DNA of 64,000 nt from Isosphaera pallida ATCC 43644 (lineage in GTDB: Bacteria; Planctomycetota; Planctomycetia; Isosphaerales; Isosphaeraceae): contig NC_014962.1 of the NCBI RefSeq assembly GCF_000186345.1, positions 1,488,001 to 1,552,000 on the forward strand, written 5' to 3'. The notes below the pieces were generated by a model, which saw nothing but the letters and a program-made list of their open reading frames with translations, ran no database searches and had not been told where the DNA came from. How positions within the stretch are numbered: position 1 is the first letter of the stretch; each line of letters opens with the position of its first letter. Below, piece by piece: positions 34,295 to 40,282 of the stretch. Made by a program: the position numbers and the translations under genes.

Positions 34295-35584
34295 TCAGCA
34301 TCTTCGGCTCGACTTGAGGTAGTCTGCCATTTTGACCTTGCCTCGTTCGAGTTCACGTCGATACAGTTCTCGAAACAGTTGAGAGTTGGGGAGTTCGCCT
34401 CGTTCCAATGCCTCGAAGTAAGCGCAAAGGGTGTAACCCAGCGCGAAGGTGACGGTGGCGGCCATCGTGGCGGAGACCGCCGAACCCAGGCCGGGGATGA
34501 CCTTGAGCAGTTCGCGCGCGCCAAGACGTCCCAAAAAGCCTACTCCCAATGCGGCGGCCAGTTCACCCAGACGAGCGGGGGTCATGGGGCGGTTGTAAAG
34601 CCGAGCCAGATCGTAAGCCAGACGGGTTTGGATCGACAACAACGCCGGAGTGCCCAGGTAGGGAATTGGCATGGCCGCGGCCGCTGCGGCCGCGGCCGCA
34701 TGCGCGATGATGCGGGGGTGGGCGCGGCGGCGGCGGTCATCCAAGCGCTCGTGGGCGTCCTGTTCCAGGATCGTCCGCAAGCCCATCGGCAGGGTCTCCT
34801 CGATCGCTTTCCACAGCGCGGGCAGACGGTAATCCACTGGCGTGAATCCATCCTCCTCCCGTGTCAGATCGACCGCGACGTAGGTCAAATCCGGGCCGAG
34901 TTCGGCGAACTCCGCGCGTTGGGCGGTGAGGCTTCGAGCCAGATCGCTTGGGATCTCGGAGGGCCAGGGAACCTGGTCGAAGACCTCTTGAGGAGGATGA
35001 TTCATGCCGTGGGGATAGCCTTCGTGGAGGTTGGTTTGAACCACCAGAATCGGCCAGTTGGGTCGCGCACGCCGGATCATCCGCGCGGCTTCAAGAACCG
35101 CGCGCTGGTTGGGATCCATCGCCTTGACCACAATCATCAAGAGGTGCGCTTGGTCCTGAAATTGTCGAAGATCGTCGGTAGGATCGTAGTGGATTTCGCC
35201 CAACCCCCGGGTGTCCAAAAACCGAATCAGCGGTGTTGTCTCATTGGGAAAGTGATAGATCGAGGCGGTGCGGGTGCAAGGTTGGAAGCCGTTGCCGATC
35301 TCGGCGCGTGTCGAGCCGGTCAACGCCCGCACGATCGAGGTCTTGCCCGATTGGGTTTTGCCTAGCAGCCAAACCACCGGGATGGCCATATGCGTCTGGG
35401 CTTGACGCAACGCCTCCAGAAAACGTTCTTCTTCTTGGACCTCGCTCGTGGTTCCCTCTTGATTGAGCGAACCCAGATGAGCTTCGGACCGGGCCGCGGC
35501 GTCGCCGGCCTCGACTTCGCGGTTTGTCAAACGCCCCGTCACGTTGTGCCACGCCGATTCAACCCACCCTTTGAAGTTGGTCAT
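34295..35584 (-). CDS. GTPase with C-terminal DUF697 domain (second of a GTPase pair)
   Basis: The 429-residue protein has G1 LLGKTQSGKTSIVRALTG near residue 80, G3 FLDTRGLGE and a weakened G4 (VVQTNLHEG instead of NKxD). The C-terminal half is a DUF697/YcjF-like module with hydrophobic hairpins (MPIPYLGTPALLSIQTRLA, ARELLKVIPGLGSAVSATMAA). A nine-alanine run bridges the two parts. DUF697 proteins associate with membranes and are often encoded beside YcjX-like GTPases, as here. It is the first gene of the pair. The degenerate G4 implies altered nucleotide specificity or a regulatory subunit role. Confidence 0.8.
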   Translation of the reverse strand: MTNFKGWVESAWHNVTGRLTNREVEAGDAAARSEAHLGSLNQEGTTSEVQEEERFLEALRQAQTHMAIPVVWLLGKTQSGKTSIVRALTGSTRAEIGNGFQPCTRTASIYHFPNETTPLIRFLDTRGLGEIHYDPTDDLRQFQDQAHLLMIVVKAMDPNQRAVLEAARMIRRARPNWPILVVQTNLHEGYPHGMNHPPQEVFDQVPWPSEIPSDLARSLTAQRAEFAELGPDLTYVAVDLTREEDGFTPVDYRLPALWKAIEETLPMGLRTILEQDAHERLDDRRRRAHPRIIAHAAAAAAAAAMPIPYLGTPALLSIQTRLAYDLARLYNRPMTPARLGELAAALGVGFLGRLGARELLKVIPGLGSAVSATMAATVTFALGYTLCAYFEALERGELPNSQLFRELYRRELERGKVKMADYLKSSRRC

Positions 35585-35676: not shown

Positions 35677-37161
35677 TTAGGGGGAGGAAGTTGCCTTCGG
35701 CAAGTTGCTCTCGTCCGGTAATTCGACCGAACTCGGTTCAGATTCTCCCGCAGACGATTGGAATTTTTGAGGGACTGTCGATCTCCGGTCGGGCTGCAAA
35801 CCGGGTTCCAGTGGAATGGTCGCGCCGTGGGGATCCGCGTCAATCGAGCCGGACCCCAATTCGGCCAAAATCTGCCGTTGGAGGTCGGGCCCCAGATAAT
35901 GCTCGGCCTCCTCGGCCGGGTCGTGAAGGTGATCCAGCGGCAGGTCGAAATGACGGTCGAGGTAGGACTCCCAAAGACGATGCGCCCGCACCTGAGCTTC
36001 GCCGGCCTCACGTCCGCCTTGGGTGAGATGGAGAGCGTCCCCTTCGCCGCGTCGCACCTGCCCCTGGCGAATCAGCCGCCCCAGCGCGTTGCGCAGAGCC
36101 GATCCGCCTGCTGTGGCCCGGTCGGGTAACTCCGAAACCCGCGCGATTCGGCCACGCTCGTCGGCTCGATAAAGCCAGGCCAGCACGTCCTCGTCGGCAA
36201 TCCGCGCGGCCAAACGCACTCGACGCCACACCCGCGCGACCACTCCCTGGGAAGGCGAACCCACCACCGCCAAGGCGAAGAACCCCCCCGCGACTCCGGC
36301 GGTCATTCCAGCCATGTTGGTGTCCAGCGCCGCGGCCAGCACAAAACCGCCCACCGCGCTGAAAGCCCCCACGAAACAAGCAAGGATTATCATCATCTCT
36401 AACCGAGATGTAAGTAATCGAGCGCACGCAGCTGGCACAATCAGCATCGCTACCACAAGGATTGACCCCACCGCCTCGAAGGAGGCGACCGTCGTGGCGG
36501 CGGTGACAACCAAAAACGCCCGATGGATACGTTCAACATTCAAGCCGGCGGCCGCGGCGTGGCCAGGATCGAACGAGGTCCAAACTAATTCGTTCCAGGC
36601 CCGCGACACCAGGATCAGTGTGGCGCAGAGCGCCAGCAGGGGGGCAAACAACGCGCGGGGAACACTCCAGGTTCCACCACCCGGCCAGGGTAGACTGATT
36701 CGTTCCAGCGAGGTTAATTCGATTGAACCATAAAGGACACATCCAGGGTCGAGATCGACGTTGTCGGCATAAGCATGGATGAGTACCACGCCGAGAGCGA
36801 ACATGGTCGTGAAGACGATTCCCAAGCTGGCGTCGTCCCGAACCCGTCCCGTGGAGGCGAGGGCGCGACTGGCCCAGGCGGTGAAGAGACCGGCTAGGGT
36901 CGCCCCAATGAACATCGGCCCCGAGGCGATGCGACCGGCCAAGAGGAAGGCGACCACCAGACCCGGCAGAACCGCGTGCGAGATCGCGTCTCCCAACAGA
37001 CTCATCCGCCTCACGACCAAAAAGCAACCCAGAATCGCGCAGGAGAGATTCACCGTCAACGCCACTGCTAAGGTCCAAGCGACGGTGATCGGATCGATGT
37101 CCCACCAATTGGTTCCATCCCCTTGCGCCAGCGCGGACCACGTCGCGTTTCCAAAGGTCAT
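35677..37161 (-). CDS. Metal ABC transporter permease fused to a DtxR/MntR-like regulator domain
   Basis: The 494-residue protein has residues 1-305 as an ABC-3 family permease for Mn/Zn/Fe (CAILGCFLVVRRMSLLGDAISHAVLPG, then the late block FEAVGSILVVAMLIVPAACARLL). Residues 315-450 match DtxR: a winged-helix part (LRNALGRLIRQGQVRRGEGDALHLTQGG), the dimerisation/metal helix HRLWESYLDRHFDLPLDHLHDPAEEAEHYL with His, His, Glu and His ligands, and DPHGATIP. The tail is unconserved. It is the last gene of a four-gene operon and overlaps the upstream permease by ATGA. The domain may sense the imported metal at the membrane or regulate the operon. An operator-like site precedes the operon. Confidence 0.88.
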   Translation of the reverse strand: MTFGNATWSALAQGDGTNWWDIDPITVAWTLAVALTVNLSCAILGCFLVVRRMSLLGDAISHAVLPGLVVAFLLAGRIASGPMFIGATLAGLFTAWASRALASTGRVRDDASLGIVFTTMFALGVVLIHAYADNVDLDPGCVLYGSIELTSLERISLPWPGGGTWSVPRALFAPLLALCATLILVSRAWNELVWTSFDPGHAAAAGLNVERIHRAFLVVTAATTVASFEAVGSILVVAMLIVPAACARLLTSRLEMMIILACFVGAFSAVGGFVLAAALDTNMAGMTAGVAGGFFALAVVGSPSQGVVARVWRRVRLAARIADEDVLAWLYRADERGRIARVSELPDRATAGGSALRNALGRLIRQGQVRRGEGDALHLTQGGREAGEAQVRAHRLWESYLDRHFDLPLDHLHDPAEEAEHYLGPDLQRQILAELGSGSIDADPHGATIPLEPGLQPDRRSTVPQKFQSSAGESEPSSVELPDESNLPKATSSP

Positions 37162-38315
37162 GATCGCGCCTCCTGAGTCTCCTCACGGACCAGATCGAGG
37201 CGAACTCGCTCCGCCAACGCGGCGAACTCCTCTGGTGAAAGGAGGCGTTCGAGACGTAGAGAGTTCAAATCCTCAAGGTCGTTTAGCATTTGGGGATGGC
37301 GTTCGAAGAACGCGCGTATCATCGCTCGGTTGAATCGGGGGTCGGTGATTTTAAGGGCTTGGGTTTGGCACCACGCGCGCCAGCGGGTCGTCAACAGCCC
37401 ACGGCGAGGCGCGAGGAGGAGCGAGAGCAGGAACAGACCAGCGCCGCTGAGGACAACCGTGGGGCCTGCGGGTAAATTCAACGCCGCGCTGGTCAACGCG
37501 CCGCTGGCCGAGGCGACCGCACCCAGGCTGGCGGCAACCAGCAACACGATTTCCAAGCGGTCCGACCAAAGGCGGGCCGAGGCGGCCGGAATAATCAGCA
37601 ACGCGGCCATCATGACCACGCCCACCGCCGGCAGCCCCACGATCACCGTCAACGCCGTCAAGCTCGTCATCGCTAGATCGAGCGTGGTGGTGGGCAAGCC
37701 CACCGCCCGAGCGAATCCCTCGTCGAACGCCACCATGAGGAACTCTTTGAACATCAATCCCACTAACAACGCGCTGATCAACGCGACCACCGCGATGACC
37801 AGAAGGTCAGACATCAAGATCCCAGCGGTTTTTCCCAGGATGTACGACTCCAACCCCGCCTTGGCTCCACCCGCGGCGTTGTTCTGGATGAGACGGCTCA
37901 TCACAATGCCCACTCCGAAGAACACGCTCAGGACCACACCAAGTCCCGCGTCGTCGGGCAATCGTGTCCAGCGTTTGAGGAACGCGAGAACCAGCAGACC
38001 CAGGCAACCGGTCAAGAGCGCCCCGAGCAGCATGGGGCCGACCGCGCGACCGCCCGCGACCCAAAACCCCAGGCAGACGCCGGGCAAAGCGGCGTGGGCC
38101 AGGGCGTCGCCCATGAGCGAGCGGCCCCGCAACACGGCAAACGTGCCTACCATGCCGGCGTTGGCTCCCAGCAAGCCCACTCCGCCCAGCACCACCCAGG
38201 TGTTGTAACTCGTCAACCAGTCGAGCGAGTTGGATGCGTTCATCGTGCTTGCGGAAACTCCGGTGACTGGTACGGGCCCAAGCAACATAGGGGGGGATGT
38301 GATGAGTCGCGTCAC
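37158..38315 (-). CDS. Metal ABC transporter permease
   Basis: The 385-residue ABC-3 permease (ZnuB/MntB/TroC type) has [24 protein letters not shown], a run of eight or nine membrane helices and [25 protein letters not shown]. The C-terminal 80 residues are cytosolic and helical. The first in-frame start is GTG 38315, overlapping the ATPase stop; ATG 38243 is an alternative closer to the conserved part. It forms the translocation pore with the fused permease encoded downstream. Confidence 0.9.
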
Positions 38316-39166
38316 TCGGTCCGCTGCTTGGTCGAGACCGCCTGACCGAGACGTTCCAGAATCGTCAAACGACCACGATAAGTGTTTTCCAGGTTGGTCG
38401 AATTGAAAACTAAGGCGGTGGGACCATACGCCACCACCCGAAGATTGAGCATCACCACGTCGTCGAAGATCTCCGGGACGCTACGGAGATCGTGATGCAC
38501 CACGACGACTGTTTTGCCTTGGTCGCGCAGGTCGCGCAGCAACTCGAAAATGGTTTTCTCGGTGGCGGCGTCTACCCCAGCCATCGGTTCGTCCATGATG
38601 TAGAGATCGGCCTCCTGAGCCAACGCTCGGGCCAGGAATACCCGTTGTTGCTGGCCACCGGACAGTTCACCGATTTGACGGTGCTCCAAGCCGGCCAATC
38701 CGACCCGCTCCAAACAGCGCGCCGCTCGCTCCTTCTCGGCGTGGCCTGGTCGAGCGAACCAGCCGAGCTTGGGGTAGGTTCCCATCAACGCCACGTCGCA
38801 TACGCGGATGGGAAAATCCCAATCCACGCTCTCGCGCTGAGGCACATACCCAATCCGACGTCTCACTTGGTTGACGGGACGACCGAACGCCTCGACCCAA
38901 CCGTTGACCTTCGGAATCAGCCCCAGCGCCGCTTTGATCAACGTGCTTTTGCCCGCTCCGTTAGGACCGATGATTCCCACCAGTCGTCCCGGTTGCAACT
39001 TCAAATCCACATTCCAGAGGACCGGGCGACGTTGATAGGCCACCGTCAGGTCGTGAATCTCGAACGCCGGAGGCTGATCCTGAGACGTGGACGAATCCAG
39101 TTGGCGCTTCGAGTCCACTTGCGACGGCGTGAACGGGGGTTCGGCGGATGAAGGGTGGGAACTCAC
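38312..39166 (-). CDS. Metal ABC transporter ATP-binding protein
   Basis: The 284-residue ATPase has Walker [13 protein letters not shown], the Q-loop in [15 protein letters not shown] typical of the Mn/Zn-type subfamily, [26 protein letters not shown] and VVHHDL. It drives uptake of a divalent metal through the two permeases. The start at GTG 39166 overlaps the stop of the binding-protein gene (GTGA). The first 30 residues are Ser/Pro-rich and not conserved. Confidence 0.93.
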
Positions 39167-40200
39167 GCCAGAGCCTCCGCGATCGTTCGCGCGTTGGCCC
39201 GCATCATGCCGGGATAGGTCGCTTCAGGAGTGCCGTCGGGTCCCATCGCGTCCGAGAACAGTTCGCCTCCAATCGCAAGACGATGCCCCCGCGCCCGACA
39301 TCCCTCCACCAGCGCCACCACGTTGCGGTTGGCGAGGGTCGATTCAATGAAAACGGCGGGTATCCGTCGGGCCACCAGGAAGTTCACCAGCGCGTTCACT
39401 TGACGAATGGAGGCTTCGGTTTCGGTACTCATTCCCTGAATCGCCTTGACCTCGAACGCGAAGGCGCGGCCGAAGTAGCCAAAGGCGTCGTGAGCGGTGA
39501 CCAACACCCGCCGGTTTCGAGGAACCGCCGCCAGAATCGCTCGGCATTCCGACTCTAGGTCGAGGAACTCGGCCTGGGTAGTCCGCGCCCGTTCACGATA
39601 CTCAGCCGCGTGGTTCGGGTCGAGTTCGGACAGCGTGTCGGCGACCACGAACGCACCTTGCGCCCAGGCAAAGGGATCGAACCAGACATGGGGATCGTAA
39701 CGCATGTGGTCGTTGGCCGCAGACCCTTCCAGCTTCAACAACTGGGAGGAGGACAACCGCTCGGTCACCGCCCGGACCCACTTGTGACCCGTCAATGCCC
39801 GCAATGCTTGACCCAACTTACCTTCTAGGTGCAGACCGTTGTAGAAGATCGCGTCGGCCCGGTTGAGTCGCGCCACGTCTCGAATCGACGCCTTGTACAA
39901 ATGCGGGTCCACGCCCGAACCCATGAGACGGATCACCTCCACCTTTGGCCCGGCCACTCGGCTTGCTAGATCGGCCACCAGACCCGTCGTCGCTGTGATC
40001 CGAAGCGGTCCGCGTCGCGCCGACGCAACCCGATCCCCGAAACGATGCGACGCCTCCGATACCAACGGCCCGCACCCCCACGCCAACCCACCCAATCCCA
40101 TCCCCGCCAACCGCGCTAAGACCGCGCGGCGGCTCCAGCTCGAATTGGTTTCCTCCAAAACTGCTTCTCGTGACCCCTCGCAATCAGCCATGACCGTCAT
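39163..40200 (-). CDS. Metal ABC transporter substrate-binding protein (TroA/MntA/ZnuA family), Tat-type lipoprotein
   Basis: ATG 40200 has AAGGA eight bases upstream, giving 345 residues. A twin-arginine signal ([13 protein letters not shown]) runs into a lipobox-like LAWGC with Cys43. The cluster A-1 metal ligands are visible: His in [10 protein letters not shown], His in DPHVWFDP, His in [14 protein letters not shown], and Asp in GELFSDAMG. The HDAFGYF block and GMSTETEAS are typical of Mn/Fe-type members, but metal choice cannot be read safely. It captures metal outside the membrane and is the first gene of the importer operon. Confidence 0.92.
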
Positions 40201-40223
40201 CCATCCTTTCCGACTCCAAGCAC

Positions 40224-40256
40224 AGACCAAAAAGCACTTTTTGGTCTACCAAAAAG
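40224..40256 (-). promoter_or_regulatory. Composite palindromic operator of the metal importer operon
   Basis: Three alternating half-sites, accaaaaag, ctttttggt and accaaaaag, are separated by two bases each. They make two overlapping perfect palindromes: 11-base arms agaccaaaaag/ctttttggtct (40224-40247) and 9-base arms ctttttggt/accaaaaag (40237-40256). It spans the predicted start site and touches the -10 box. The position is ideal for repression by a dimeric metalloregulator of DtxR/MntR or Fur/Zur type. Confidence 0.75.
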
Positions 40257-40282
40257 TTAGAGGTTGTCAGAGCTTTTGTCAA
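40254..40282 (-). promoter_or_regulatory. Promoter of the metal importer operon
   Basis: On the minus strand TTGACA (40277-40282, 6/6), a 17-base spacer and TAACTT (40254-40259, 3/6). The weak -10 behind a perfect -35, with the operator overlapping it, fits a repressible promoter. The rest of the 481-bp divergent gap up to 40681 shows no gene. It holds an aaaaggagg run at 40421-40429 with no suitable start codon at the right distance. Confidence 0.65.

Follow-up and report, generated by a model that had tools for sequence, protein, structure and literature searches.

The window, i.e., the whole 64-kb stretch of DNA analyzed, carries on its minus strand a four-gene TroA/ZnuA-type metal ABC-transporter operon, and a block of overlapping palindromes is found 24-57 bp upstream of 40200, where the binding-protein gene probably starts. 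The features are listed in window coordinates, except for the regulator, which is located elsewhere and is given in chromosome coordinates.

40224-40257: block of overlapping palindromes, 34 bp
40277..40282, minus strand: TTGACA, -35-like hexamer, as read from the sequence
40254..40259, minus strand: TAACTT, -10-like hexamer, after a 17-bp spacer and overlapping the first half-site
40236..40257, minus strand: primary palindrome of the putative operator, ACTTTTTGGT-AG-ACCAAAAAGT, perfect 10-bp arms, dyad at 40246.5
40238-40255, minus strand: primary core, TTTTTGG-TAGA-CCAAAAA
40224..40247: second perfect palindrome, AGACCAAAAAG-CA-CTTTTTGGTCT, 11-bp arms, half-sites 2 and 3 in reverse polarity, dyad at 40235.5
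40227..40233, minus strand: third half-site, TTTTTGG, at the fixed +6 offset past the core
40217..40222, minus strand: position of the fourth half-site (YCAAAA in relatives), here TGCTTG, decayed and unmatched
35677-40200, minus strand: four-gene TroA/ZnuA-type metal ABC-transporter operon, with 4-bp gene overlaps
39163..40200, minus strand: TroA/ZnuA-family metal-binding protein (PF01297, E 2.5e-71; best solved relative TroA, 1.4e-74)
38312..39166, minus strand: metal ABC transporter ATPase (PF00005; top NCBIfam match MntA, below its cut-off)
37158..38315, minus strand: metal ABC transporter permease 1 (PF00950, 8.5e-61), with a 4-bp gene overlap
35677..37161, minus strand: metal ABC transporter permease 2 (PF00950) with a fused DtxR-type metal-binding/dimerization domain (PF02742, 6.6e-16)
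about 1978097-1978771 of the chromosome, about 450 kb away: stand-alone DtxR/MntR-like regulator, 224 aa

On the plus strand, the block reads ACCAAAAAG (40226-40234), CA, CTTTTTGGT (40237-40245), CT, and ACCAAAAAG (40248-40256), as the initial annotation had described. The two overlapping perfect palindromes that it reported are real and lie where it placed them, with perfect arms that are longer than it gave; on this strand the primary palindrome reads ACTTTTTGGT-CT-ACCAAAAAGT. Half-sites 1-3 are perfect within the block, and the fourth is decayed. The block is also set off in composition (65% A+T vs. 39.5% in the flanks), for which "sharply", the word used earlier, is slightly strong. Within the 64 kb, a single further repeat, at 34673, combines perfect arms of 10 bp or longer and a gap of 0-4. 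In shuffled windows with the same gaps, the mean number of repeats per 64 kb is 0.6 when the arms reach 10 bp or more and 0.15 when they reach 11 bp or more, so that a lone palindrome of such arms is just moderately unusual and weak evidence by itself. Taken together, the shared half-site, the promoter position, and the conservation in relatives are not due to chance.

The TTGACA-N17-TAACTT pair on the minus strand is promoter-like and was assigned by reading the sequence; a simple, strict promoter scan did not call this pair. In relatives, a cluster of TTGACA-like hexamers is seen 20-25 bp before the core, and TATNAT-like hexamers are found next to the core or overlapping it. Transcription would be expected to start near 40247. 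The binding protein probably starts at 40200 or 40191, and its signal region contains an RR motif and a Cys.

Phylogenetic footprinting covered 164 orthologous binding-protein genes of the class, each with at most 700 bp of upstream sequence, and recovered the core TTTTGR-N4-YCAAAA upstream of the orthologous operons, in which N4 is the sole conserved spacing. Shuffled upstream regions gave 0.0002 matches per locus, and reversed or respaced patterns gave 0-2. The core follows a single regulator: with DtxR orthologs defined by an E-value below 1e-55 to the stand-alone DtxR/MntR-like regulator, rather than by a tree, the exact core was found at 54 of 97 loci in genomes with an ortholog vs. 0 of 66 in genomes whose DtxR is more distant or absent (Fisher 2e-16, which overstates independence since the compared genomes are related). 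Within one mismatch, the counts were 77 of 97 and 3 of 66, respectively, and the contrast recurs within four families (f2, f5, f11, and f15). Two draft genomes lacking the ortholog still carry the box (L208 and L264). Conservation upstream of orthologous operons, which the initial annotation had set as the test of its reading, is therefore borne out.

The same distribution bears on the possibility that the site is bound by a Fur-family regulator (Zur or Mur) or by some other transcription factor. TroA/ZnuA operons are often under Zur or Fur control, and three Fur-family genes are present in this genome. However, Fur-family genes were present in 59 of the 59 genomes tested, so Fur cannot explain the distribution of a box found almost solely with one DtxR ortholog. 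The site also has the half-site spacing of the DtxR family and lacks the 7-1-7 arrangement usual for Fur. We therefore regard control by a Fur-family or other factor as unlikely. An FNR box was rejected as well, because the TTGA..TCAA spacing is N4 here and N6 in FNR sites.

The loci that have the regulator but lack the core are concentrated in one genus: 14 of these 20 belong to genus g27, and all 14 carry ATGTAGCC-N2-GGCTACAT instead. At L017, L018, L188, L191, and other loci of this genus, an (A/T)TGTAGC-N4-GCTACA(A/T) palindrome fills the promoter region. TGTAGC-N4-GCTACA boxes also occur upstream of the orthologous operon in many genomes without the DtxR ortholog, i.e., in the same promoter region as the core but with a different sequence. 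We take these boxes of other Planctomycetia to resemble the E. coli MntR box, and a second MntR-type regulator probably binds them. A change in the recognition helix (SPGTVT to APGTVT) was considered as the cause of the missing core in g27 and set aside, because the TGTAGC box is common to genomes without the regulator; an equally or more likely explanation is that another MntR is used. In genomes with a more distant DtxR, the classic DtxR-type sequence TTAG-N6-CTAA was found within one mismatch at 18 of 19 loci.

The genome encodes one stand-alone DtxR, the other DtxR-type metal-binding domain being that fused to permease 2. The stand-alone protein combines an HTH, a metal-binding, and a FeoA-like domain, and its top solved relatives are 5zr4 ("metal-dependent transcriptional regulator", 1.6e-38), 8pvt ("putative iron dependent repressor", 6.4e-37), which we take to be DR2539, and ScaR/SloR. 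It departs from the B. subtilis MntR type, a two-domain protein with Asp8/Glu11 and Glu99/Glu102/His103 ligands: the alignment places Asn and Lys at the Asp8 and Glu11 positions, Glu/Glu/His are kept, and there is an extra FeoA-like domain. The regulator thus appears closer to the DR2539/ScaR types than to B. subtilis MntR. DR2539 of Deinococcus radiodurans likewise has Lys in place of MntR Glu11 and binds an inverted repeat at mntH with Mn(II) or Fe(II) (Nramp gene as target, unlike the TroA-type ABC operon here) (PMC3327659). Because the regulator shares this Lys with a protein responsive to both metals, its own metal may be Mn or Fe.

The core itself has the geometry of a DtxR/MntR-family operator. 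A single IdeR dimer binds TTAGG-N4-CCTAA, with TTAGGNNNNCCTAA as a one-dimer target (PMC8464063), and TTTTTGG-TAGA-CCAAAAA keeps the same N4 spacing. As in IdeR/DtxR operators, the half-sites are inverted, the inner bases are GG..CC, and the site overlaps a metal-uptake promoter, here a putative one assigned by sequence, for a transporter that may carry Mn or Fe. The half-site is TTAGG in those operators vs. TTTTTGG here, with one base changed per half-site.

The operator architecture extends beyond one inverted repeat. Among the 78 relatives with the core, 38 have a third half-site at +6 (TTTTSR with at most one mismatch; next best offset: 12), and 18 have a fourth at +16 (YCAAAA, again with at most one mismatch). 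A whole second core lies at exactly +22 in 10 cases. The general design is thus two tandem inverted repeats with a 22-bp pitch, equal to two helical turns. When half-sites 2 and 3 stand in such a tandem, the second palindrome arises automatically. The fullest tandem form was observed in a distant family (L030, genome G040), with the four successive half-sites CTTTTTGATGAATCAAAAAGTACTTTCTGTGGACCAAAAAC.

On these grounds, we consider it probable (roughly 0.8) that the block is the operator of a troABCD-like metal-uptake operon that is repressed by a metal-loaded dimer of the stand-alone DtxR/MntR-like regulator. The analysis establishes the sequence, position, conservation, and tandem layout of the block and its co-occurrence with one regulator; we infer binding, the metal, cooperativity, and repression along the following lines. 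With enough Mn(II), and possibly also Fe(II), the metal-loaded dimer would sit on 40238-40255, where it would overlap the -10 box as well as the probable start of transcription and block RNA polymerase. The half-site at 40227-40233, as part of a second site two turns on, would be weaker, and a neighboring dimer on the same face may use it cooperatively. Upon metal starvation, the repressor would be released and the operon transcribed.

Promoters that bind multiple adjacent dimers of a DtxR-family protein, as envisaged for this tandem, are known elsewhere. B. subtilis MntR binds mneP cooperatively as four dimers on four 18-bp sites within 84 bp, and three adjacent sites are cited in the same paper for SloR of Streptococcus mutans (PMC11275975). 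By our arithmetic, the mneP layout implies a pitch of about 22 bp. In contrast to the operon here, mneP is activated rather than repressed; the site sequences differ, and just one and a half sites remain here.

The second palindrome invites other readings. It might be a functional second register, such that, with increasing metal, one dimer toggles between a site that blocks the promoter and another farther downstream, and three half-sites would then make a graded two-state switch; we consider such toggling very doubtful. The half-sites of this palindrome are of reverse polarity (CC..AAAAA/TTTTT..GG). The exact reverse-polarity pattern of this genome showed no enrichment in relatives; the consensus of the class is instead an inward-facing core that has G/A as its inner base.

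The initial annotation had instead read the two overlapping palindromes as two registers on which two dimers could bind opposite faces of the DNA, in the manner of DtxR-type proteins. Both palindromes are indeed perfect, and that at 40224-40247 has the longer arms. For comparison, two IdeR dimers on the 19-bp TTAGGTTAGSCTAACCTAA sit on opposite faces, and a 5-bp site offset can be derived from that sequence (PMC8464063). The block has no second site of the same polarity at an offset of about 5 bp. Instead, the dyads of its palindromes are 11 bp apart, i.e., about one turn, which places them on the same face with a shared half-site and reversed polarity, and same-polarity sites 22 bp apart are likewise neighbors on the same face. 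What relatives keep is the primary core and the 22-bp tandem, from which the palindrome of half-sites 2 and 3 follows. Because of the 11-bp and 22-bp spacings and the pitch of about 22 bp at mneP, the binding of neighboring dimers fits better, and the opposite-face arrangement is highly unlikely. The earlier identification of a DtxR-type operator is thus supported by its conservation, its tracking of the DtxR ortholog, and its site geometry, whereas the two-register and opposite-face binding proposed with it are not supported.

That the 40224-40247 palindrome acts in RNA, as a 5'-terminal stem-loop of the transcript that affects stability or attenuation, is equally improbable. A 10-bp stem with a 4-nt loop would form at the predicted 5' end (leader -16.2 kcal/mol, z -1.65), and a terminator-like pattern is present at 40257-40236. 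Against this reading, the z-score of the fold is modest, the run of T is just five long and is itself the third half-site, and an Rfam search gave no match above cut-off. In addition, the palindrome with the best conservation has its first half-site over the -10 box, upstream of the transcript.

The suggested use of the site upstream of other metal genes found no convincing case in genome scans. The exact sequence ACCAAAAAGNNCTTTTTGGT, i.e., ACCAAAAAG-N2-CTTTTTGGT, occurs once in the 5.53-Mb genome. Three further exact cores were found, at 826351, 3144840, and 3681733, none at a clear metal gene. The core at 3144840 lies inside a CRISPR-like repeat array, which contains TTTTGGTCTGCCAAAA probably by chance, and at 3681733-3681748 a perfect TTTTTGG-N4-CCAAAAA stands between a DUF1559 prepilin-like gene and cas3. 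One site with a single mismatch (660481-660498), just upstream of a pxpB-like gene and with a divergent ArsP-like permease, is likewise not at a clear metal gene but is a possible second target. Allowing three mismatches, the pattern was rarer than its control, and neither of the genome's two Nramp-like genes had a core nearby. Since no core matches near the regulator gene and the genome offers no second convincing target, the regulon appears to be very small. Across 84,980 species, the three-half-site pattern gave one match, which stands in an unrelated context and is taken as chance.

Judged by sequence comparison, the block appears to be an ordinary type of metal-repressor operator that is conserved across the class, which we read as Planctomycetia, where the DtxR ortholog is present. 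Full-text literature searches gave no mention of its commonest form in relatives, TTTTGATTAATCAAAA, and nothing related for the phylum combined with two regulator names. TTTTGR-N4-YCAAAA in a 22-bp tandem would provide a class-wide, testable operator code for metal homeostasis that is paired with a specific regulator. With at least two other types of operator among relatives, namely TTAG-N6-CTAA and TGTAGC-N4-GCTACA, the class would also lend itself naturally to the study of joint change in DtxR proteins and their sites.

It is also worth noting that the DtxR-type domain of permease 2 shares 33% identity over 81 aa with the stand-alone regulator. This C-terminal domain keeps the His/Glu..His..Glu/Glu/His pattern and has no HTH match in Pfam, and it might serve as a cytoplasmic metal sensor that gates the transporter directly. 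Similar fusions are present in many genomes of the class.
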